From Desulfuromonadales bacterium (GTDB taxonomy: Bacteria > Desulfobacterota > Desulfuromonadia > Desulfuromonadales > Syntrophotaleaceae): a DNA stretch of 33,319 bases. Location: positions 1-33,319 of the forward strand of contig JABXKU010000022.1 in the NCBI GenBank assembly GCA_013619105.1, written 5' to 3'. The notes under the pieces are model-generated. The model had not been told where the DNA came from, ran no database searches, and saw only the letters and a list, made by a program, of their open reading frames with translations. The number at the start of each line of letters is the position of its first letter. Position 1 is the stretch's first letter. A program made the translations under genes and the position numbers. Below, in pieces: positions 20,983 through 33,319 of this stretch.

Positions 20983-22407
20983 TTAGTTACTTAGTTTTTT
21001 TAGTCGTTTACTCAAACCCTGACGGGTTATACCGAGCAACCCCGCGGCAATGGTCTGGTTTCCCTGGGCGCGTTTCATCGCTTCGGTAACCAACGCCTCG
21101 GCATTCTCAATCAGGGTCGGCAAGCGTTCCGCAAATAAAACTCCAGCCGTTGCTACCGAACCCGTATTTGCGGAACATGACCCGCCACCTTCCGGGACGG
21201 CCTCACTCAACACCCTTTTAAAAGAATCCATGGACAGGATTCCCATTTCATGGAGGGATACGGCATCATAAACCATGGCTCGCAATTCTCGGAGGTTTCC
21301 TGGAAAGTGGTAAGTTGCCAAAAGAACCGGCAATTCGCTGGGCGGGGTCGGTATTTTCTTACCCATCGCCTGAGCAGCCTCCTCGAAAAAATGCTCGAGG
21401 AGTAAGGGTAGGTCTTCCCGGCGTTCCTGCAGCGGCGGGATATGGACATGGTGAGCACAGAGTCGATAATAAAGGTCTTTACGGAATTTTCCCGTCACCT
21501 GACTTGCCGCAAGGTCTACATTGGTAGCTACCACAATACGAGCCCGCAGTTTCTGCGGATAGTCACTTCCAAGGGGATAATATTCCCCCTCTTGCAACAG
21601 CCGCAGCAATTTCACCTGCGAGGCCGCACTTAGATCGCCGATTTCATCCAGAAACAGAGTTCCCGAACCGGCCTTGGCGATCATCCCGCCGCGGGTCTGC
21701 TCGGCTCCTGTAAAGGCCCCCTTGGCATGACCGAACAGCGTATCGGCAAAGACATTGTCATCCAGCCCGGCGACATTGACCGCAACCCAGGGCTCGTCTG
21801 CCCCGCGCAGGTCATGAACGGCTCTTGCGACCAACTCTTTGCCGACGCCGCTCTCCCCGGTGACCAGCAACGGCTCGGGGCTGCGGGCGACGGCCTCCAG
21901 GTACTGAAAAAGGGCCTGCATCCGCCTGTTGCGGGTAATGATCCCGGCAAAAACTGCGGGATTATTCAATCGGTCCTGCAGAACGCACTCCTTCAGACGG
22001 ACATTCTCCTGCTGCAGGCGCTGGTACTCGAGGGTGCGCTGGACTGTGGCAATCAGTCTCTCGGTGTCGTCGGACTTAATAAAATAGTCCCGCGCTCCGT
22101 AACGCATGCATCGCACCGCTGTCTCAATCTGGTTAACACCGCTAACAACAATCACCGGGATCTCCGGATAATCCCTGACGATCAACGACAGTAGCTCCTC
22201 TCCCGACAGGTGTGGCATGGTCAAGTCAAGCAGTATCAAACTGACTTGAACGGACGCCAGCAACTCCATGACTTCGCGGCTATCCTCGCACCGAAGGACA
22301 TTGTTAATTCCTGCATCCTTTTTCAAAATCAGAGAGAGGCTGCGCAGCCAGGCGGCTTCATCGTCCACCGAAAGCAGGGGGATGTCCGGAAACAGTTTTG
22401 AACTCAT
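20983..22407 (-). CDS. Sigma-54-dependent response regulator (NtrC family)
   Basis: The 474-residue regulator has an N-terminal receiver (acidic pair Asp 15-16, phospho-acceptor Asp 61 in LLDLTMP, Lys 111) and a central AAA+ sigma-54 activation domain. That domain has Walker A GESGVGK at 184-190, the sigma-54 contact loop GAFTGA at 230-235, and Walker B LFLDEIGD near 251-258. A Fis-type helix-turn-helix ends the protein (TIAAGLLGITRQGLSKRLKKL). All functional motifs are intact, so it should activate sigma-54 promoters when phosphorylated. The ATG follows AAGGAG, and its first bases overlap the end of the kinase gene (ATGA), showing it is the cognate partner. No sigma-54 promoter was recognised in the window. 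Confidence 0.96.
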   Translation of the reverse strand: MSSKLFPDIPLLSVDDEAAWLRSLSLILKKDAGINNVLRCEDSREVMELLASVQVSLILLDLTMPHLSGEELLSLIVRDYPEIPVIVVSGVNQIETAVRCMRYGARDYFIKSDDTERLIATVQRTLEYQRLQQENVRLKECVLQDRLNNPAVFAGIITRNRRMQALFQYLEAVARSPEPLLVTGESGVGKELVARAVHDLRGADEPWVAVNVAGLDDNVFADTLFGHAKGAFTGAEQTRGGMIAKAGSGTLFLDEIGDLSAASQVKLLRLLQEGEYYPLGSDYPQKLRARIVVATNVDLAASQVTGKFRKDLYYRLCAHHVHIPPLQERREDLPLLLEHFFEEAAQAMGKKIPTPPSELPVLLATYHFPGNLRELRAMVYDAVSLHEMGILSMDSFKRVLSEAVPEGGGSCSANTGSVATAGVLFAERLPTLIENAEALVTEAMKRAQGNQTIAAGLLGITRQGLSKRLKKLSN

Positions 22408-25400
22408 GGGTTTTCTCCTTCGTTGACAGATGGCAGAGCTAAACGCACGGTCGTTCCCTGACCCGGCAAGGAGAAAAACTCGAGATTCCCGCCATGCTCT
22501 CTAACGATACGGGCCGAAACCGAAAGACCAAGACCGGTACCGCCATTTTGACGTTTGGTGGTGAAAAACGGCTCGGTGATATGGGGCAGAACTTTCGGGT
22601 CGATACCCTTACCCTCGTCCCGAACTTCGACAACACAGTGCCCGTGAGTTTCATCAAAATAGGTGCTTACAAAAATGCGCCCCTTTTTATCGCTGAGTGC
22701 CTGACAGGCGTTGATGATCAGATTGACAATCACCTGTTCAATTTGCTGAAAAATACCCTTGACCTTAGGCAGGTCAGGCGCAAGACAAACCTCGTAACTG
22801 GGAGCGAACTGCTTGAGCGTACTGCCCGTGAGCCGCACGGCAATTCCTACAACTTCGTTCAAATCTACCAATCCAAAGAATGGCTTCGATTCCGACTGCA
22901 CAAACTGCTTCAAGTCCTTGACAATACGGTTGATACGCTTGCTACTATCCTGCATATCCGTAATCATCTGAGGTATTTCCGTGTCCATTTCGCAAGAGTC
23001 CAGGCCGGCCAGGCTTTCTATGCCCTGCTCCTGCAGAAAGTGGGGCAAGACCGGCAAGATCTCCGTGAAGAAATCCGCCAGAACCTTGGAGTTGAGCATC
23101 AGTACGCCGTTAGGGTTGTTGATTTCATGGGCCACACCGGCCGCCAGTTCGCCTAGTGATGCCAATCGAGCCGATCGCTCCGCGTCATCGCGCAACTTAA
23201 CTTTTTCGGTGATATCGACGGCCATTTTAATAACATTTTCCACCTTTCCCTGAGCGTTTTTCAGAGGAAAGGCCTTTACTCCCCAGATTCTGCCGTCGGG
23301 GAAGGTAATCGGTTGCTCCTCAGCCTTGCCGCTATGAAAGCATCTCGCTACCGGGCAGTCCGGACAGACCTCTGTATGTTCAAACCACAGACTGCAACAG
23401 AACTTTCCAGGCAGTTCTCTGACATTCAACTCCAGATGACGGGCGGCGCCTTCATTGCCCCAGACAATGTTCCTATCGGGCGTCAGCAAAAAAATCGCAT
23501 CGGGAATATTGTCAAGAAGAGCCTGAAATTGCCGAAATAATCTTTTGTACTCCTGTTGGCTTTCCCGTAACCCCTGTTCAATCCGTTTCGATTCAATTAA
23601 ATGGACGAGGCCCTGGCCTAGCAGGCTCAGCTGGCGAACGTCAGCATCAGTGTATTTTTCAGCCTTGTTGCCTACCCCGATAACGGCCACCACTTTGTCC
23701 TGTTCCAGCAGTGGCACGCCCAAGAACCGCTTGATCGGGGTATGCCCTCCCGGCAGGCCTTTTTTGACCAGAGCTGGCAACGCATAGTCGTTGATGATGA
23801 TCGGCTTTTTATGGCGTACCGCTTCTGCCCAAAGCCCCGCCTTCTCAATCGGATAACCGGCGGATGCTTTCTTCATGGTACATTCCTGCAACACCCCGCG
23901 AGTCCAGCCGTGCTTGATCAGGGTCCCTTCCGCTTCATTAACGAACGCCAGGTACCCGATCTTGCTCTTGGTAAGGCTGGTCACCGAGGAAACGATAAAG
24001 TTGATAATCTTTTCAACCGGCGCATCCGCCATCAGGTTGAGAGCCACCAAGGCTTCCAGGCGGGCCTCGTCCAGACGTAGGGCCGCTTCGGCAGCCTTAC
24101 GCTCAGTCACATCCTGAACGATGGAAACAATGCGGTCAATCCGACCATCAGGGAGGCGCAAACCCCTTGATGAAATCGCCACGTGAACTAAGGTGCCGTC
24201 CTTGCAAATATATCGTTTATCGTGAGTGTAGACATCGGTTTCTCCCGCACACAGGACTTCAAACTTTTCATAAGAGTCGTTAAGATCATCGGGGTGGGTT
24301 AAATCGATCCAGCTTTTTTTCTGCAACTCATCCCAGGAATATTTAATTATTTTGCAAAATTGGTCGTTCACTTCCAGCCATTTACCTGATGCCGAAAGGG
24401 TCATCATCCCCACCAAGCTAAGATCAAAATAGCCACGAAAATGCGCTTCAGATTCGCGCAGCGCCTTTTCTGCGCGATAGCGTGAATCGAAGTTCTTCAA
24501 CAAAAACAGGCCGCCTAATGCCAAACCGGCCAAAAGAATCAGTCCCTTTAGGAATTTCCCTTTAGGAATTGCATAAACGGGCAAATTCCCGTCAATGACC
24601 ACGCTTCCAGCAGGCAAAATGCTGCGTTGGATAGCAAAACGCTGCAGCTCTTTGCCATCGAACATAAATACGCCGGCATCCTGATCCACAATGGGAATGG
24701 TATCGGCTCTTTCACCGGCGAGAATACGCAAAGCTATTTCAGCAGCCAATCGGCCTTGTTCGCTGCCAGAGATCAACTTGCCACCGACAATCCCTCGGCC
24801 TAGAAAAAAGTCCCACATCCCGTATATGGGCACTGGACAATATTGGCGTAGCCGCTTACAGCTTTCTTCAAAGGACAGAACCCCAAGCGTTTCATCCTCT
24901 ATGACATCGGTCAAGAAAACCAATTGCCCAGGCACTACCTCGGCGAGGCGTTTTTGCACCTCACTCCAGGGCAGGTCACTCCAGAAACGAAATTGGACCT
25001 GATCCTTAAACAGGGAAATATCCTTGGCCAATAAAGCTTTATTGGCCTCGCCTGTTAAAGATTTCGTCCGATTGATCACTACAATCTCGCGAGTTCCCGT
25101 ATGCAACTGTAAAGCTAATTTGATTGTCTCAGCGTAGGCTGGGGTCTCTTTAATACCGGTAATTGCCGGCAACCCATTGATCATGGCAGGGCGAAACCGG
25201 TTCACACCGCAGAAAACGATGGGAATCTCAGAAAACAAGCTCTTGCGATGATTCAGTACAAACTGGAAGGCGTGGTCATCAGAAACCAGCACAAGGTCGT
25301 AGCTTCTAATAGTTAGCTTTAACTCCAATAGCCTAGCGGTCTGTTCCTCGAACGCTTTAATACCGTAGCGTTTAGCGTCCAGATACTCGACCTGGATATG

Positions 25401-25637
25401 GACCGGTGTTTTTGAGAAAGCAAATTGCTGATTTATGGCCTTATGGATATCATCCGTCCACTTCAACCCGGAATGATAGGAATGGATCACCAACACTTCT
25501 TTGGCGTCGATAGCCTCTTGGGCAGAGGCATATTGCCAACCACAAATAAGCAGCAGTAAAAAACCGATCATACTAAGCAATACGGTCTGTTTTACCAACG
25601 CGATACGATTCATAAACATTGGACAAAAGCACTTCAT
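22404..25637 (-). CDS. Hybrid-input sensor histidine kinase with fused substrate-binding domain
   Basis: The 1077-residue kinase has a signal/anchor helix (about 14-33), a periplasmic ABC-substrate-binding-like domain (about 45-350) and TM2 (about 362-381). A PAS/PAC (394-513), a GAF (526-685) and a second PAS (698-813) follow. The kinase core has the phospho-accepting His 837 in AHEINNPNG, N-box NLIINACQAL, G1 DEGKGID and G2 NGGTGLGLS. The second PAS has a cysteine cluster (Cys 747, 748, 758, 761, 766, with CPDCP), a possible metal, Fe-S or redox site. The ectodomain shares SYxSxxxW, DxKR, SDDxA and VFCGVN motifs with the two stand-alone binding proteins at the right end. The start is ATG 25637 after GGTGAAG; the frame runs 27 codons further without a site. 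Confidence 0.9.
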   Translation of the reverse strand: MKCFCPMFMNRIALVKQTVLLSMIGFLLLLICGWQYASAQEAIDAKEVLVIHSYHSGLKWTDDIHKAINQQFAFSKTPVHIQVEYLDAKRYGIKAFEEQTARLLELKLTIRSYDLVLVSDDHAFQFVLNHRKSLFSEIPIVFCGVNRFRPAMINGLPAITGIKETPAYAETIKLALQLHTGTREIVVINRTKSLTGEANKALLAKDISLFKDQVQFRFWSDLPWSEVQKRLAEVVPGQLVFLTDVIEDETLGVLSFEESCKRLRQYCPVPIYGMWDFFLGRGIVGGKLISGSEQGRLAAEIALRILAGERADTIPIVDQDAGVFMFDGKELQRFAIQRSILPAGSVVIDGNLPVYAIPKGKFLKGLILLAGLALGGLFLLKNFDSRYRAEKALRESEAHFRGYFDLSLVGMMTLSASGKWLEVNDQFCKIIKYSWDELQKKSWIDLTHPDDLNDSYEKFEVLCAGETDVYTHDKRYICKDGTLVHVAISSRGLRLPDGRIDRIVSIVQDVTERKAAEAALRLDEARLEALVALNLMADAPVEKIINFIVSSVTSLTKSKIGYLAFVNEAEGTLIKHGWTRGVLQECTMKKASAGYPIEKAGLWAEAVRHKKPIIINDYALPALVKKGLPGGHTPIKRFLGVPLLEQDKVVAVIGVGNKAEKYTDADVRQLSLLGQGLVHLIESKRIEQGLRESQQEYKRLFRQFQALLDNIPDAIFLLTPDRNIVWGNEGAARHLELNVRELPGKFCCSLWFEHTEVCPDCPVARCFHSGKAEEQPITFPDGRIWGVKAFPLKNAQGKVENVIKMAVDITEKVKLRDDAERSARLASLGELAAGVAHEINNPNGVLMLNSKVLADFFTEILPVLPHFLQEQGIESLAGLDSCEMDTEIPQMITDMQDSSKRINRIVKDLKQFVQSESKPFFGLVDLNEVVGIAVRLTGSTLKQFAPSYEVCLAPDLPKVKGIFQQIEQVIVNLIINACQALSDKKGRIFVSTYFDETHGHCVVEVRDEGKGIDPKVLPHITEPFFTTKRQNGGTGLGLSVSARIVREHGGNLEFFSLPGQGTTVRLALPSVNEGENP

Positions 25638-26920: not shown

Positions 26921-29044
26921 TTACTTGGAATTGTCGGCAAAATGGCGGCTCAAAAAAAGCTCTGCCCGGTCAACGGGATGGGGACGGCTGAAGTAATAAC
27001 CCTGTACTTCCTCGCAACCGCAACGCCGCAAAAATTCAAGCTGTTCCTCGGTTTCAACCCCTTCGGCAACGACCTTCAGCTTGAGGCTATGGGCCATAAC
27101 GACAATAGCCTCGGTGATGGCCGCGTCATCCGAGTCGGTGGTGATGTCCCGCACAAAGCTGCGATCGATCTTAATGCGATCGATAGGGAAATACTTGAGA
27201 TAGCTGAGCATACTGTAACCGGTACCGAAATCATCAATAGCCAGCTTGATGCCGCGCACCTTCAGGTCGGTCAAGGTCAGCAAGGTCTCTTCGGAGCGCT
27301 CCATGACGATACTCTCGGTCAGTTCGATTTCCAGACACCGGGGGTCGAGGCCGGTCGCTTGCAAGATACGGTCAATCCGGTCGACAAAATCAGGCTGTTT
27401 AAACTGGCAGGCGGAGATGTTGACCGCTATGCGCAAACGATCAAAACCAGCCTGGTGCCATTCTTGGGCCTGCTTGCAGGCCGTCTCCAGTACCCATTCG
27501 CCGATAGGCAGGATCAACCCTGTCTCTTCTGCCAAAGGAATAAATCGGACCGGCGAAATACTGCCAAGAGCAGAAGAATCCCAGCGCAACAGGGCTTCCA
27601 TACCGATAACCCGGCCACTTGCCAGATCAATCTGCGGCTGGTAATGGAGACTGAGTTCTTGTCGCTCTAATGCCTGCCGCAAGTGTGTCTCCATGGCTAG
27701 GCGCTGAGAGGTGGCAAGGTTCATCTCCGGCGAATAGAACCTATAACTACCCACCCCCTGTTCCTTAGATTGGTGCAGGGCGACACCGGCATGTTTGACC
27801 AGGGTATCGACATTGCCACCATCCGTTGGATACAGGGCCAAACCGATGCTCGCCGAACAGTACAAGGGTTGGTCATTCAATTCGATCGGCACGGCCAGGG
27901 CAATCAGAATTTTCTCAGCAAGAAAAGAAAGACTTTCCGGGCTGTCGATATCGGGCAGGGCCACAGCGAACTCATCGGGGCCCAGTCGAGCAAGAATCGC
28001 CCTTTTTTCCAAACAATCCGTCAAACGTTCGCTGACTTCTTGCAGAAGCTGGTCGCCTATATCATGACCGAAGGTATCGTTAATACCCTTGAATCGATCG
28101 AGATCAAGGATAATTAAACCGACGGGATTCTTTCCTGCCTGGGCCAACAAATCGGCGCAACGTTCCCGAAACAGCTGCCGATTGGGCAGACCGGTCAGGG
28201 TGTCAAAATAAGCCAGCTGACGGATCTCCTGCTGGGCCTGTAGGTGCGGCGTAATATCGTGCACCAAGCTAATAGCGTAGGTCACCTGCCGCTGATCATC
28301 GAACAGCCAGCAGGTTGAGACATGAACCCAAAGGGTGTCACCATTTTTGCATACAAAACGTTTTTCATAATCAACGGACTGACGCTGGCTGAGCTCCGCC
28401 TCATTAAACAAACGACGGGTCAGAGCAATATCAGAGGGGTGGGTAAAGTCATAGGTGCTTTTACCGACCAGTTCAGCCTCTGAACACTGCAACATCTTGC
28501 AAAAGGCAGGATTGACCTGTAGGAAACAACCATCCCCAGAAAGGGTCACCATACCGGTAATGGCATTAAGGAAAATGGAACGAAAACGCTGTTCGCTCTC
28601 CAGCAAGGTCTCTTCTGCACGACGACGCTGGCGGCGACTGGCCGCTTCACGAAGCTCACGGTCTATCGCCGGGAGCAGGCGGGCGGTGTTCCCTTTCATG
28701 ACATAATCGTGGGCGCCAGCACGCATGGATTCAACGGCGGTTTCCTCGCCAATATTTCCGGAAAGAACGATAAAGGGGATATCGAACCCACTCTGTTTCA
28801 GGACCTGCAGGGCCTCCAGAGCGCTGAAACTGGGCATAGAATAGTCGGAGACGACCAGATCCCAGGCCTGCTCGGCCAGGGCGGCGGCCATGGCCTCGGC
28901 GGTATCGACCTGTTGAAAAGTCAGATCGTAGCCGGCCCGCCGCAGACTGCGCACCAGTAACAGGGCATCGTCCTCGGCATCCTCGACGATAAGGGCCCGC
29001 AGAGGCAATAAGTCTGGAGAGTTTTTATTTATAGGACTGCTCAT
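26921..29044 (-). CDS. REC-PAS-GGDEF-EAL response regulator (c-di-GMP output)
   Basis: The 707-residue cytoplasmic protein has a receiver (Glu 21/Asp 22, phospho-acceptor Asp 67, Lys 117), PAS/PAC (about 150-268), GGDEF (about 278-435) and EAL (about 450-700). The cyclase signature is GPDEF (355-359): the second Gly is Pro, which may impair synthesis or leave a GTP-binding regulatory site. The EAL domain is complete: EAL at 483-485, ELTES, IDDFGTGYS, KIDRSF, AEGVETE, QGYYFSRP. The net activity predicted is phosphodiesterase controlled by phosphorylation. It is the last gene of a five-gene operon; its ATG lies 20 bases inside the end of the preceding receiver gene in another frame, so the two are translationally coupled. 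Confidence 0.94.
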   Translation of the reverse strand: MSSPINKNSPDLLPLRALIVEDAEDDALLLVRSLRRAGYDLTFQQVDTAEAMAAALAEQAWDLVVSDYSMPSFSALEALQVLKQSGFDIPFIVLSGNIGEETAVESMRAGAHDYVMKGNTARLLPAIDRELREAASRRQRRRAEETLLESEQRFRSIFLNAITGMVTLSGDGCFLQVNPAFCKMLQCSEAELVGKSTYDFTHPSDIALTRRLFNEAELSQRQSVDYEKRFVCKNGDTLWVHVSTCWLFDDQRQVTYAISLVHDITPHLQAQQEIRQLAYFDTLTGLPNRQLFRERCADLLAQAGKNPVGLIILDLDRFKGINDTFGHDIGDQLLQEVSERLTDCLEKRAILARLGPDEFAVALPDIDSPESLSFLAEKILIALAVPIELNDQPLYCSASIGLALYPTDGGNVDTLVKHAGVALHQSKEQGVGSYRFYSPEMNLATSQRLAMETHLRQALERQELSLHYQPQIDLASGRVIGMEALLRWDSSALGSISPVRFIPLAEETGLILPIGEWVLETACKQAQEWHQAGFDRLRIAVNISACQFKQPDFVDRIDRILQATGLDPRCLEIELTESIVMERSEETLLTLTDLKVRGIKLAIDDFGTGYSMLSYLKYFPIDRIKIDRSFVRDITTDSDDAAITEAIVVMAHSLKLKVVAEGVETEEQLEFLRRCGCEEVQGYYFSRPHPVDRAELFLSRHFADNSK

Positions 29045-29465
29045 TTAGATTCAACCAATAGTTTCCAACCTGGCCAACGGCATTGAGAAAACAATTAAAA
29101 TCAACCGGCTTGCGAATGTAGCTGTTGGCTCCACGTATATAGGCCTCTTGAACATCTTGCTCTTCACGGGAGGTGGTCAACACCACCACCGGCAGCAGAC
29201 GAGTACGTTGATCGAGACGCAAACGCTCCAGCACTTCGAGACCGCCTATTTTAGGCAATTTAAGATCCAGCAATACAACTCCCGGCAGTTCCGATTCGCT
29301 GCAATCGGCGTAGGAGCCACGGCCGAAGAGATAATCGAGGGCTTCGGCCCCATCGCGGACCACCACCACCCGATTGGTGATACGGTTGATGCGCAACGCC
29401 CGCAGGGTCAAAACCTCATCATCAGAATTGTCTTCTACAAGTAAAATACTTTTCTTATTTATCAT
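29025..29465 (-). CDS. Stand-alone response regulator receiver (Rcp1/CheY-like)
   Basis: The 146-residue single-domain receiver has the acidic pair Glu 11/Asp 12, phospho-acceptor Asp 67 (VLLDLKLPKIGG), Thr 97-98 and Lys 119 (IRKPVDF). All are intact. The insert between strands 2 and 3 (LFGRGSYADCSESELP) is typical of Rcp1-type receivers paired with phytochrome-like or Cache kinases. It has no output domain and so must act by protein contact or as a phosphate shuttle. Its end overlaps the GGDEF/EAL gene by 20 bases, and the kinase gene ends 12 bases before its start, so all three are co-translated. Confidence 0.95.
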   Translation of the reverse strand: MINKKSILLVEDNSDDEVLTLRALRINRITNRVVVVRDGAEALDYLFGRGSYADCSESELPGVVLLDLKLPKIGGLEVLERLRLDQRTRLLPVVVLTTSREEQDVQEAYIRGANSYIRKPVDFNCFLNAVGQVGNYWLNLNEQSYK

Positions 29466-29477
29466 TCCATTTGTCCA

Positions 29478-31058
29478 TTACAAAGTAAAGAAGAAGGTCG
29501 CACCTTTTTCCACTTCGCCATCGGCCCAGACCTGGCCTCCGTGGCGATGAATAATACGTTGCACTGTGGCTAGGCCGATACCGGTACCGGGAAATTCGTC
29601 AATCCGGTGCAAACGCTGAAAGACGCCGAATAATTTTTCAGAGTAAGCAGGATCGAACCCTGCGCCATTGTCCCGCACATAATAAACCAACTCCACAGGA
29701 GGTGCATCCTCTGTTGTGGACCGGTTCCTTTCCATACCGAATTCGATTCTACCCTGCTTACGACGGCCAGTAAACTTCCAGGCATTGCTGAGCAGATTTT
29801 CCAGAACAACTCTCAATAACCGAGGGTCGCCGTCAGCCTTAACCTCGGGCTGGACCACCATCTCTACCTGACGCTGAGGATTGTTTTTCTGCAGCTCTTT
29901 AGAAACGAGGTCTGCCAAACTACTAAGATCAACCGGTTGCCGAATCATCTCTCCGCGGGTTATACGGGATAGATAGAGCAAGTCGTCGATAAGCTGGGCC
30001 ATGCGTTGGGAAGCACCTCGCACCCGTTGCAGAAACTCCTGACCTTCCTCGTCGAGTTGCTCGCCATAATCATCCAGTAAAGCCTGGCTGAAACCATCAA
30101 TGCTGCGCAGCGGCGCCCTTAAATCGTGAGAAACCGAATAGGCAAAAGCCTCCAGTTCCTGATTGGCTACTTTGAGTTGAGCGGTACGCTGGAGTACCCG
30201 TTGCTCAAGCTCCTGGTTAAGGTGAAAAATTTCCTGCTGAGTCTGCTGATGTTCTGTTATCTCTAGATGCAATCGGGTATTGGTATTCTGTAAAGCTTTG
30301 GCTTGCTTAGCTAGGTCGCCATGAGCGGCCGAGAGATGTTCGGACATTTGGCTAAAAGCCCGTGTCAGGTCACCGACCTCATCTACCGCATTTGACTGGG
30401 GCAGGTTCTTTTTCCAGTCGCCTTGGCTGATGGCCAGAGCCGCCTCGGAGAGCTGCTGTACCGGGGCGACAATCGTCCTGGCGAACCAGGCAAATATCAG
30501 CAGGCCAACGACCAGACCAAGCAACAAAATCCACGTAACCTGGTTGAGAAAAGCATTGCGCTCGGCAAGCATTTCTTCGACGTCCACTGACATAAGCACA
30601 ACCCAGTTCCAGGCAGGGAACCCTGCATGATAGTGAAACTGTTCCTTTTTGCCATGGGCGTGTTCCCAAAACCCTTGGGCTCCCTGAGCCACAATTTCAT
30701 CGTAAATGATATCAGGATTCTGCTGTTTCGCCAATTGGGGCAACAGCTGCCTGGAGCTCGGCTCGGCGACAATCTGTATGCGACCGGTTCGGCCAAAACG
30801 GAAATCTCGATATTTATCCAGAATGTCGGCCTGAGCCCTGCGCACATAGCTGTCGACGGCAGCCACACCGCTCTCGGTCAGCACCTTATGGGCACTGCGA
30901 ATATCTTCCAGGACTTTGACAACCTCCGCCTCCATCAGCTTGCGATTCATGCGGTAGGCCAACCGCTCGATGGTAAATACACCGGCGATGCTGATGGCGA
31001 TACCGACCGGGAGCAGGACGCCGAGGGCAAGCAGATTGAATTTGTATCTGAGTTTCAT
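29478..31058 (-). CDS. Sensor histidine kinase (sCache-HAMP-HisKA-HATPase)
   Basis: The 526-residue membrane kinase has TM1 (about 9-30), a periplasmic single-Cache domain (about 35-170, with HYHAGFPAWNWVVLMSVDVEEM), TM2 (about 175-193), HAMP (about 194-246) and a Gln/Leu-rich coiled coil. The HisKA domain has His 311 in SVSHDLRAPLRS, and the ATPase has N-box NLLSNAWKF, G1 DNGAGFDP and G2 GTGIGLAT. The SHDLRAPL box is of the phytochrome-like subtype that pairs with Rcp1-type receivers, matching the next gene. The ATG at 31058 lies 4 bases after the stop of the upstream binding-protein gene, with GAGGG upstream; the frame runs ten codons further into that gene. The sensor domain may contact the binding proteins in the periplasm, an inference from the operon. 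Confidence 0.94.
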   Translation of the reverse strand: MKLRYKFNLLALGVLLPVGIAISIAGVFTIERLAYRMNRKLMEAEVVKVLEDIRSAHKVLTESGVAAVDSYVRRAQADILDKYRDFRFGRTGRIQIVAEPSSRQLLPQLAKQQNPDIIYDEIVAQGAQGFWEHAHGKKEQFHYHAGFPAWNWVVLMSVDVEEMLAERNAFLNQVTWILLLGLVVGLLIFAWFARTIVAPVQQLSEAALAISQGDWKKNLPQSNAVDEVGDLTRAFSQMSEHLSAAHGDLAKQAKALQNTNTRLHLEITEHQQTQQEIFHLNQELEQRVLQRTAQLKVANQELEAFAYSVSHDLRAPLRSIDGFSQALLDDYGEQLDEEGQEFLQRVRGASQRMAQLIDDLLYLSRITRGEMIRQPVDLSSLADLVSKELQKNNPQRQVEMVVQPEVKADGDPRLLRVVLENLLSNAWKFTGRRKQGRIEFGMERNRSTTEDAPPVELVYYVRDNGAGFDPAYSEKLFGVFQRLHRIDEFPGTGIGLATVQRIIHRHGGQVWADGEVEKGATFFFTL

Positions 31059-31062
31059 AAAT

Positions 31063-32100
31063 CTATCGTCCCTCGGGCAAGGGAGCAACGGCCTCTTTGT
31101 AAACTTCCTTACCGATGACCTCCGCCGTCTGTAGCAGCGAGACCGGCAGTACCAGATCGGCGGCCTTGGCCATCTTCAGATTAACCACCATATGGGCCAA
31201 ACGGTTGCGGACCACGGGCAGGTCCGCAGGCCGCGCGCCGGCGAAAATTCGCAAGGCGGTGGTGCCGGCATATTGCCCCTGCTCCTCGGGAATCTTGGCG
31301 ATTGTCAACAAGTTATAGGGTTTCATCCAGGGCAGCACCGAACCGGTCGGCACGGTGGTATGCTCTGCCACAAAGGCTTCCGCCGCGGCGGCATCCCACC
31401 CGGTGATGCCGGAATTGTTTCTAAACAGCAACATATCGACTTCCTGCTGGGCCCGCAGAAAAGCCTCCTTGAATTCGGCGAAGGAGCGCACCAGATAGTA
31501 CCGCAACTGGCCGTCGAAAAACTGTTTATTGTATTGGTCCGCAACAACCCGCATGGTATGTACGTCCGCGCCCATTATGCCGGCATGGGCGCCTTTGGCC
31601 AAACGCCGCAGATGCATAACCAGCCCCTCGGCCATTTCGTCTTCGATCATGCCTGTCACATTGCTGCAGGGATAACCATAATTGTCGAGATCTTCATTCA
31701 CGCCGCAGAATATCACCGGCAGGTCTGTATCCTTGAGATAGGGCACCACCAAATGACGCTGGGCATTATCGTCGGAAGCGATGACCACATCGGGGCGAAA
31801 CTCCTCAATAATCTTTCTCGCCCGCTGGCCGGCCTGGCGATGAAAATCCTCTTCGAGGTGGCGTTTGGTGTCCATGTGAAAGACTCTCAGCTCCACACCG
31901 CTTCCGTGCAACGCGTCCCGAAGCCCCTTTTCAATACCGGAGCTCCATTCGTAATCGGAGTTGTAGGAATCAACCCAAAGAATTTTTTTACCACGATAGG
32001 GAAACTGCAAATCCTTGGCGCTGTCTTCGGCCATTGCCGTCGTAACGATACCGGTCAAGAAGATCACCAGCAGCAGACCGTTCACAATACGCAACCCCAT
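31063..32100 (-). CDS. Periplasmic substrate-binding protein 1 (ABC_sub_bind-like)
   Basis: The 345-residue protein has a Sec signal peptide (MGLRIVNG, a hydrophobic core, cleavage after AMA near residue 24). A two-lobe substrate-binding fold follows, of the kind seen in uncharacterised ABC-type binding proteins (PF04392-like). Diagnostic stretches are KKILWVDSYNSDYEW, HMDTKRHL, DVVIASDDNAQRHLVVPYL, PVIFCGVN and YPCSNVTGM, followed by a second lobe (about 165-320). It is a close paralogue of the next gene upstream. The start at 32100 follows AGAGGAG by 8 bases; the frame is open ten codons further. No permease or ATPase is in the operon, and it lies directly before a kinase gene, so a sensory role is favoured over transport. 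The ligand is unknown. Confidence 0.85.
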   Translation of the reverse strand: MGLRIVNGLLLVIFLTGIVTTAMAEDSAKDLQFPYRGKKILWVDSYNSDYEWSSGIEKGLRDALHGSGVELRVFHMDTKRHLEEDFHRQAGQRARKIIEEFRPDVVIASDDNAQRHLVVPYLKDTDLPVIFCGVNEDLDNYGYPCSNVTGMIEDEMAEGLVMHLRRLAKGAHAGIMGADVHTMRVVADQYNKQFFDGQLRYYLVRSFAEFKEAFLRAQQEVDMLLFRNNSGITGWDAAAAEAFVAEHTTVPTGSVLPWMKPYNLLTIAKIPEEQGQYAGTTALRIFAGARPADLPVVRNRLAHMVVNLKMAKAADLVLPVSLLQTAEVIGKEVYKEAVAPLPEGR

Positions 32101-32160
32101 CAAACTGGCTCCTCTTACAGCTCCAATCATACAAATCCCTTATAACTTATATACCATAGT

Positions 32161-33201
32161 CTACTTTTGCAGTGCCTCTTGACCGATGACTTCCGCCGTT
32201 TCTAACAGAGATACCGGCAGTAATACACCGGCGGCCTGGGCCATCTTCAGGTTGACGGTCAGATGCGCACGGCGGTTTTGGGTGACAGGAATCTCCTCGG
32301 GCCGGGTGCCGGCGAGAATGCGTAGTGCCGCCGTGGCAGCGAAGCTTCCCTGTTCTTCGGGAAAACTGGCTAGGTTGAAGATCACGAATTTCTTCATCCA
32401 GGGGTTGATCGAGCCGGTGGGGATACGGGTTTGCTCAGCGAGAAAGATTTCCGCCGCGGCGTCCTCCCAATCCTGGATAGCAGCATTGTTGCGCAGGCAC
32501 AGAATGTCGACCTCGTGCTGAGCTTGCAGAAAGGCCTCCTTAAATTCGGCCCAGGTACGCACCGTGTAGACCGTCAACCGGTCGCCAAATACCTGACGGT
32601 AGTGGTCATTTACAATTCGCATCGTCTCCGTATTGCCAGCGAGCATGCCGATGCGTTCGCCGCCGGCAAAATCGCGCATTGCCCCCGTCAGGGCATCGGC
32701 AAAATTGACCTCGCGCATGCCGGTCACGTTTTGGCAGGGGTAACCATATTCTACTGGGTCGCGATTAACCCCACAAAAGACCACTGGCAGGTTGCGCCCT
32801 CTGAGATAGGGCACCACTAGATGTTTCTGGGCATTATCGTCGGAAGCGATGACCAAGTCTGGGCGATACTCCTCGATGATCTGTTTCGCCCGGCGGCCGG
32901 CCTGGCGATGAAAATCTTCGTCGAGGTGGCGCTTGGTGTCCATGTGAAATATTTTCAGCTCCACGCCACTTTCGTACAGCGCGAGGCGAAGCCCCTTTTC
33001 AATACTCGCACTCCATTCGTAATCGGAGTGGTAAGAATCGACCCAAAGAATCTTTTTACCCGAAAACGGACCACGGACCGAAGAAGCTAATTCACCGGCT
33101 TGGGACACGCCACAAAGTAGTACCGTCACCAGGCAGGCCCACAAAAGCAACCTTATCCGGAACGGCTGTCTCACCAATCTGCCGTACCTCTTCCAAAGCA
33201 T
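32161..33201 (-). CDS. Periplasmic substrate-binding protein 2 (ABC_sub_bind-like)
   Basis: The 346-residue paralogue of the preceding protein has a signal peptide (basic MLWKRYGRLVRQPFRIR, hydrophobic core, cleavage near SQA). The same motif series follows: KKILWVDSYHSDYEW, HMDTKRHL, DLVIASDDNAQKHLVVPYL, PVVFCGVN and YPCQNVTGM. The VLLC in the signal peptide is not a good lipobox, so a soluble periplasmic protein is expected. The lobes are nearly colinear with protein 1, and stretches of the DNA are nearly identical, showing tandem duplication. The start is uncertain: ATG 33201 is chosen (GGGGTGG upstream), while GTG near 33174 and TTG/GTG upstream to 33216 are possible. It is the first gene of the five-gene operon; 60 bases separate it from protein 1. 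Confidence 0.85.
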   Translation of the reverse strand: MLWKRYGRLVRQPFRIRLLLWACLVTVLLCGVSQAGELASSVRGPFSGKKILWVDSYHSDYEWSASIEKGLRLALYESGVELKIFHMDTKRHLDEDFHRQAGRRAKQIIEEYRPDLVIASDDNAQKHLVVPYLRGRNLPVVFCGVNRDPVEYGYPCQNVTGMREVNFADALTGAMRDFAGGERIGMLAGNTETMRIVNDHYRQVFGDRLTVYTVRTWAEFKEAFLQAQHEVDILCLRNNAAIQDWEDAAAEIFLAEQTRIPTGSINPWMKKFVIFNLASFPEEQGSFAATAALRILAGTRPEEIPVTQNRRAHLTVNLKMAQAAGVLLPVSLLETAEVIGQEALQK

Positions 33202-33319
33202 AGGCCACCCCACCAACTAGGTTTTGCTGTCCTTCATGAAAAATCGGGAAACACCATTTTGAGCCACCCACAGGGTGTAGTTTGTCACAGAGTATAAAGA
33301 GGAATTGATGCTTTTGTTT
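33202..33319 (-). promoter_or_regulatory. Upstream region of the five-gene operon (possible -10)
   Basis: On the minus strand a TATACT (5 of 6) lies about 80 bases upstream of the first binding-protein gene, but the window edge prevents a clear -35 assignment. An imperfect repeat around CCACCCACAGGGTGTAG lies between. No GEMM riboswitch core was recognised. Confidence 0.3.

Follow-up and report, generated by a model that had tools for sequence, protein, structure and literature searches.

PF04392-type substrate-binding proteins as probable receptor partners and built-in sensor domains in a Desulfuromonadales contig

The window analysed here is a stretch of 33,319 nucleotides from a Desulfuromonadales bacterium (GenBank assembly GCA_013619105.1, contig JABXKU010000022.1). 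Its minus strand carries two neighbouring signalling gene sets, and substrate-binding protein (SBP) domains related to Pfam family PF04392 occur in both. In the first (26921-33216) a pair of stand-alone SBPs, P0003 and P0002, heads an apparent operon which continues with a histidine kinase, a response regulator and a REC-PAS-GGDEF-EAL protein. In the second (20983-25637) the binding domain forms the ectodomain of a sensor kinase, P0001, which is followed by a sigma-54 response regulator. Judging from sequence comparison and gene order, we consider it probable that the stand-alone proteins are the receptor-partner SBPs of a three-component system and that the fused kinase employs its SBP as a built-in sensor domain. 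The features are as follows (TM, transmembrane helix; aa, amino acids).

32161..33216, minus strand: stand-alone SBP P0003, 351 aa; hydrophobic segment at the N-terminus and no TM beyond it; PF04392 at 41.8 bits
31063..32130, minus strand: stand-alone SBP P0002, 355 aa; PF04392 at 35.8 bits
29478..31088, minus strand: operon histidine kinase; TM25, ectodomain of ~145 aa, TM188, HAMP, HisKA, HATPase; 26-bp overlap with the P0002 gene
29025..29465, minus strand: single-domain response regulator; separated from the kinase gene by 12 bp
26921..29044, minus strand: REC-PAS-GGDEF-EAL protein, 707 aa; gene overlapping the preceding response regulator gene by 20 bp
22404..25637, minus strand: fused sensor kinase P0001, 1077 aa; TM (centre residue 20), SBP ectodomain, TM (centre residue 370), PAS, GAF, PAS, HisKA, HATPase
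24570..25514, minus strand: SBP ectodomain of P0001, residues about 42-356; PF04392-like periplasmic binding fold
20983..22407, minus strand: sigma-54 response regulator, REC-Sigma54_activat-HTH_8; 4-bp gene overlap with P0001

The reading frame of P0001 is open throughout and encodes 1077 aa, or 1104 aa if an upstream TTG is the start. Pfam and hydropathy analysis give it the TM-SBP-TM-cytoplasmic kinase layout of a fused-SBP sensor kinase; HATPase_c is matched at 86.3 bits and HisKA weakly, at 25.4 bits against a cut-off of 26.9. The sigma-54 response regulator is its likely partner. P0002 and P0003 are 59% identical (BLASTP), and each has a hydrophobic segment at the N-terminus only, as judged by hydropathy and not by a signal-peptide predictor. 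In the last protein of their operon the GGDEF motif is degenerate (GPDEF) while the EAL motifs are intact, as in the same-genus copies at loci L042 and L043, and for this reason net hydrolysis of cyclic di-GMP (c-di-GMP) would be a plausible output of the operon. Locus L042, from genome G119 of the same genus, contains four SBPs, a kinase, a regulator and a REC-GGDEF-EAL protein, again with a fused kinase close by. No permease or ATPase gene lies downstream in the window operon; the window ends upstream of P0003.

The first-pass annotation of this DNA had noted that the P0001 ectodomain shares four motifs with the two stand-alone proteins, and both the motifs and their coordinates were confirmed. 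SYHSGLKW, EYLDAKR, VSDDHAFQ and PIVFCGVN are located at residues 53, 84, 118 and 139 of P0001; the counterparts in P0002/P0003 are SYNSDYEW/SYHSDYEW, HMDTKR, ASDDNAQ and PVIFCGVN/PVVFCGVN. BLASTP aligns P0001 with P0003 at 3e-18 (26% identity over 336 columns) and with P0002 at 2e-10, and the local alignment score of the ectodomain is 175, the maximum in 500 shuffles being 58. When a profile of four fused ectodomains of the window's genome was compared by hhalign with one of five stand-alone domains (two from the window, two from L010 and one from L011), the probability was 99.9 and the E value 6.4e-32 over 282 columns. The fused-ectodomain profile detects stand-alone genes in whole genomes at 3e-33 and, on its own, matches PF04392 structures among the PDB sequences (6hni at 3.4e-6, 3lft at 2.5e-5), where the stand-alone profile matches 3lft at 1.6e-9. 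Searched singly with phmmer against the PDB sequences, P0003 gave nothing significant, though the profiles matched.

The profile comparison places the ectodomain and the two proteins in one family. P0003 and P0002 pass the PF04392 (ABC_sub_bind) gathering score of 25.9 bits; the ectodomain reaches 17.2 bits and falls under it, a point which counts against our reading and which could be taken to mean that the shared motifs reflect convergence of two unrelated groups on a common fold. The hhalign result and the detection of stand-alone genes by the fused profile tell against convergence, which we regard as scarcely credible; unrelated families were rejected on the profile-profile E value and on the match of the fused profile to PF04392 structures. 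As judged by the profile-profile comparison and by profile searches of the PDB sequences, the P0001 ectodomain is a remote relative of PF04392.

Structure prediction for the ectodomain (pLDDT 65.5, moderate) and for P0003 (pLDDT 87.5) placed the same solved PF04392 structures first for both models. These are 3lft (TrpX, SP1069), 6hni and 6hnj (CD0873) and 3lkv (VC_1101), all from PF04392 binders of aromatic amino acids. In a second structural alignment the ectodomain model matched 6hnj with Z 18.2 (rmsd 4.8, 280 residues aligned; next other entry Z 14.8), and the best match of the P0003 model had Z 24.0 (rmsd 3.4, 276 aligned; next other entry 17.1). Stand-alone relatives supply five of the six rows of the alignment behind the ectodomain model, so that its fold match does not stand apart from homology, which again weakens our case; the sequence profiles, unlike the model, are an independent test of relatedness.

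From the fusion, the first-pass annotation had argued that the stand-alone proteins also signal through a kinase. That claim is supported, although the best evidence for it is not the fusion but the operon adjacency to a different kinase, at 29478-31088, which had been missed; the contact itself is something we infer. The stand-alone profile matches 47 of the 136 genomes of the order at 1e-10 and a five-domain profile matches 62 of the 395 phylum genomes at 1e-20, with fused copies counted in both cases; both survey sets were picked, at these thresholds, by similarity to the stand-alone proteins of the window. The next gene was examined for 94 arrays, 36 from the order and named organisms (the window included) and 58 from the phylum. 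Fifteen were dropped: in seven the contig ends at the SBP (L045, L052, L063, L064, L072, L199 and L206), in seven more the following gene is truncated (L067, L153, L165, L170, L174, L178 and L203), and L050:1973 is a fused-clade gene that is split. This left 79 assessable arrays, L055 among them despite a kinase gene that is cut by the contig end; outside the survey lie short fragments in G011, G362 and G383.

A membrane receptor is encoded directly downstream, on the same strand, of 65 of the 79 arrays. Histidine kinases account for 58 of these receptors, GGDEF-EAL proteins and chemoreceptors for two each, and three are without a found output domain. In the order and named set a receptor follows 26 of 29 arrays (by Pfam, 22 HisKA, two GGDEF+EAL and two MCP) and in the phylum set 39 of 50 (36 HATPase_c and three PAS/Cache receptors, the latter being those without a found output domain). 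Kinases make up 23 of the 701 other genes in the same loci, and Fisher's test of 58/79 against 23/701 gives 1e-50, a value that overstates the evidence because the loci are related. SBP and receptor genes often overlap across the surveyed loci, the SBP gene stands directly beside a GGDEF/EAL gene at L050 and L054, and a double SBP in one protein lies upstream of a kinase at L010, L049, L149, L150 and L154. At least two TM helices are predicted in 63 of the 65 receptors, the first two lying 100-360 residues apart, a topology whose periplasmic domain is what a docking partner needs. By hydropathy, none of 80 stand-alone proteins has a TM helix after residue 120. Lipoprotein anchoring as a rule was rejected, a lipobox-like motif being present in only three of the 80.

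At L165:2-2017 a stand-alone PF04392 SBP stands beside a receptor whose ectodomain is a Phosphonate-bd binding protein, and an ectodomain of this kind occurs in one further receptor of the phylum set.

Several further observations weigh against the view that these SBPs serve receptors. The array counts are not independent, since the loci share ancestry. No receptor lies directly downstream in 14 of the 79 arrays (L011, L062, L065, L151, L152, L155, L156, L158, L160, L164, L167, L171, L172 and L204), whose next genes were judged by phmmer with a query set of our choosing and by TM count, with Pfam for some. In two of these, L062 and L065, the SBP gene follows a 12-13-TM protein; that of L065 is a Na/sulphate-type transporter with cNMP_binding and Na_sulph_symp domains. 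In the window itself, the ectodomain of the 29478-31088 kinase has a weak Cache_3-Cache_2 match of its own (Pfam, E 0.0036). Finally, three SBPs encoded near AgtS and AruS of Pseudomonas aeruginosa did not bind the sensor domains tested (PMC11113362). That precedent, and the fact that the receptors carry ectodomains of their own, would fit adjacency without contact, in which the kinase senses through its own ectodomain and the SBPs act as co-regulated scavengers or periplasmic buffers. However, the pairing holds across kinases, GGDEF-EAL proteins and chemoreceptors, often with overlapping genes, the same family is fused to the receptor in a sister clade, and of 11 SBP-kinase pairs that have been characterised, ten are encoded side by side or almost so (PMC11113362). 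In our view adjacency without contact is unlikely, but it is the strongest of the alternatives. Among the 14 arrays we also observed a chemoreceptor directly upstream of the SBP array at L156, and an FG-GAP repeat protein preceding the SBP gene at L155 and L158.

The stand-alone proteins might instead be ordinary components of an ATP-binding cassette (ABC) importer which serve an unlinked permease, as the family name and the importer role of its TrpX-type members would imply. A TrpY-type permease is indeed found elsewhere in 10 of 30 genomes of the order, the window's own G000 (C185) included, and this also speaks against a purely sensory role; the 30 are our own selection, namely those whose stand-alone loci were fetched, with the cut G132 left out. 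In the remaining 20 a strong match (E below 1e-80) is missing; several of them have weak matches (1e-9 to 1e-5), which we take to be LivH-like, and many are drafts. Over the whole order the permease profile gives strong matches in 23 genomes. The single-contig genomes G119, G114 and G035 all have stand-alone genes, and none has a permease match at 1e-5.

No TrpY-type permease was found within three genes of any stand-alone gene, a search that did not extend to unrelated permease types and that is not exhaustive because open-reading-frame picking can miss genes (an ATPase or permease was missed in controls L213, L214 and L215), while contig ends cut the view. An ABC ATPase occurs near stand-alone genes at L011 (on the opposite strand) and L173 only. 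As controls we used 20 loci of other PF04392 members (L209-L228). All seven that score above 300 bits with PF04392 (L209-L215) have a permease and/or ATPase next door, and none of the 13 below 300 bits has a TrpY-type permease next door. Within the lower-scoring group, L226 has an ABC ATPase one gene from the SBP, L224, L225 and L228 have a chemoreceptor beside it, and at L216:4366-7649 a PF04392 SBP lies directly upstream of a kinase-REC gene. The window pair scores 19.6 and 19.2 bits with the NCBIfam TrpX model NF041285, for which the cut-off is 390, and its ligand-loop motifs differ from those of TrpX. With no permease found nearby, no match in the three single-contig genomes and one present in the TrpX-type controls, the importer reading was rejected, and we would give it only a slight chance. 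The stand-alone family is thus not found mainly in ABC operons, and the evidence suggests that this PF04392 branch usually feeds sensors rather than importers. Within the order, importer context seems to belong to the TrpX branch, together with the multi-domain proteins of L077 and L207.

The protein of L077:6696-10442 (G000:C185) has 1248 aa and four tandem PF04392 domains; its operon has a dCache-HAMP-SpoIIE-HATPase receptor upstream and a permease and an ABC ATPase downstream. The copy in G118 (L207) shows the same gene order with a STAS protein between, and L208 has a three-domain version. A fused SBP kinase of 1343 aa at L127:1055-8121 comes directly after a TrpX-like SBP-permease-ATPase operon, and the two may share a ligand. 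Among the control loci, another PF04392 branch, in L217-L225 and L228, adjoins a protein of ~660-740 aa (without a Pfam match in L222), which in L222 comes after a multihaem cytochrome c and an MlaD protein.

Other receptors also carry the P0001 type of ectodomain. The fused-ectodomain profile matches 87 of the 136 genomes of the order, stand-alone matches counted in, and all 39 fused proteins examined have a TM helix at the SBP end; their outputs include kinase, kinase-REC, GGDEF and GGDEF-EAL. At L117 and L118 two SBP domains precede a GGDEF domain in one protein (by Pfam for L117). In a tree of 170 domains, a quick build with long-branch warnings, a single clade with 50 members holds all 41 fused domains (SH-aLRT 100). 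Apart from these, the clade has nine members: four that are cut by contig ends, L110 near a contig end, and L050, L109, L112 and L113, which are separate frames immediately before a kinase core. Its sister clade consists of 51 stand-alone domains, including those of P0002 and P0003, and eight TrpX-type importers form a separate clade. A single origin of the fusion is tentative because the fused copies used for the tree came from one order. The first-pass annotation had drawn a Rosetta-stone argument from the two gene sets. The same family does occur both fused and separate; strict orthology of both parts was rejected, as the kinase modules of P0001 and of the 29478-31088 kinase share 26% identity over 182 residues only and the SBP domains belong to sister clades.

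To varying degrees, SY-, TKR-, D[DN][ND]A- and F[CS]GxN-type motifs are common to the receptor-linked clades, whereas the TrpX-type sequences have ATPTA and FAAVTDP in place of the last two. In the sequence alignment the DDNA/FCGVN positions stand opposite TrpX ATPAA and the loop that follows; they may line the pocket, so that the ligand would presumably not be an aromatic amino acid. The PF04392 structures found here bind Tyr, Phe or Trp (PMC6816091). We also offer a broader scenario, to which we give somewhat less than even chances: the whole branch would have left transport and turned into an exchangeable input, at first as one to four free SBPs per receptor (kinases, chemoreceptors and c-di-GMP enzymes), and later become fused to the receptor in one lineage now found in several phyla, with the acidic D[DN][ND]A loop pointing to a shared class of ligand different from TrpX's aromatic amino acids.

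The reading we prefer, of free SBPs that partner a receptor beside a kinase with its SBP built in, draws on homology, hydropathy topology, operon structure, the conserved pairing with receptors of several output types and the failure to find a TrpY-type permease beside the stand-alone genes or a strong match to one in most of the order genomes that have such genes. In the operon at 26921-33216, P0002 and P0003 would be exported and catch a small molecule in the periplasm; the loaded proteins would then bind to the part of the adjacent HAMP histidine kinase that faces the periplasm and alter its activity. Phosphate would pass to the REC-PAS-GGDEF-EAL protein as well as to the small response regulator, and c-di-GMP would probably be lowered. 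In the system at 20983-25637 the binding domain is held between two membrane helices of the kinase, and its closure on the ligand could act directly on the PAS/GAF and kinase core, with output through the sigma-54 response regulator. Docking, ligand dependence and the direction of the c-di-GMP change are steps that we infer.

Histidine kinases stimulated by SBPs are known from TorT-TorS (PDB entries 3o1h and 3o1i) and XylFII-LytS (5xsd), in which an exported periplasmic binding protein acts on the periplasmic domain of the kinase. These entries are among the fold matches of P0003, but they represent another SBP branch; the present systems use PF04392, have in places two to four SBPs per kinase, and reach several receptor outputs. 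NspS-MbaA, a polyamine SBP with a c-di-GMP receptor, likewise couples an SBP to c-di-GMP turnover, whereas the link in the window runs through a kinase and response regulators. NspS belongs to an SBP family other than PF04392. Sensors with PBP-I type ectodomains, described in passages of PMC1592074 that do not name PF04392, likewise use a binding-protein fold as a built-in extracellular sensor; here the built-in form has kinase-adjacent stand-alone sister proteins. According to PMC9602780, 13 of the 22 SBP families found there interact with receptors, and PF04392 may already be one of them. Among the titles and opening lines of abstracts returned by searches of open-licence PubMed Central papers, no report of PF04392 in a receptor role was found. 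What looks new is PF04392 in this role and the series from free to fused forms, and not SBP-stimulated receptors or binding-protein sensor domains as such.

Genes of this branch can carry the annotation 'ABC transporter substrate binding protein' even though their neighbours point to sensors. If our reading is correct, a known kind of input could be assigned to many sensor kinases as well as to some chemoreceptors and c-di-GMP enzymes, and their signals could be sought by ligand screens on a soluble protein, which is easier than working with a membrane receptor. With fused and free forms in one family, there would also be a natural comparison of a binding protein and the sensor domain into which it has turned.

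Relatives occur on plasmids and in named organisms. With the ectodomain as query, tblastn returned 100 plasmid records, including Ilyobacter, Acaryochloris, Sinorhizobium, Parabacteroides and Azospirillum; with P0003 it returned eight. Six of the loci found with the ectodomain were inspected and three of their proteins scanned with Pfam, those of Sinorhizobium and Parabacteroides having HisKA and HATPase_c and that of Azospirillum GGDEF and EAL. P0002 was without a match in phage records, and a search of the genome contigs for related loci returned two relatives only. On the megaplasmid of Nitratidesulfovibrio vulgaris DP4 an SBP gene is followed by a dCache-PAS kinase, a response regulator and a REC-HD-GYP protein, and the annotated gene order in strain RCH1 is the same. 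The REC-HD-GYP protein has 363 aa, the length of DVUA0086, and because the lengths are equal we take the two to be the same gene. DVUA0086 is the HD-GYP regulator of strain Hildenborough that hydrolyses c-di-GMP; its gene of 1092 bp is missing when pDV1 is lost, and a transposon mutant of it exists (PMC4114195). The gene for a 352-aa relative in Vibrio cyclitrophicus comes before that of an EAL protein.

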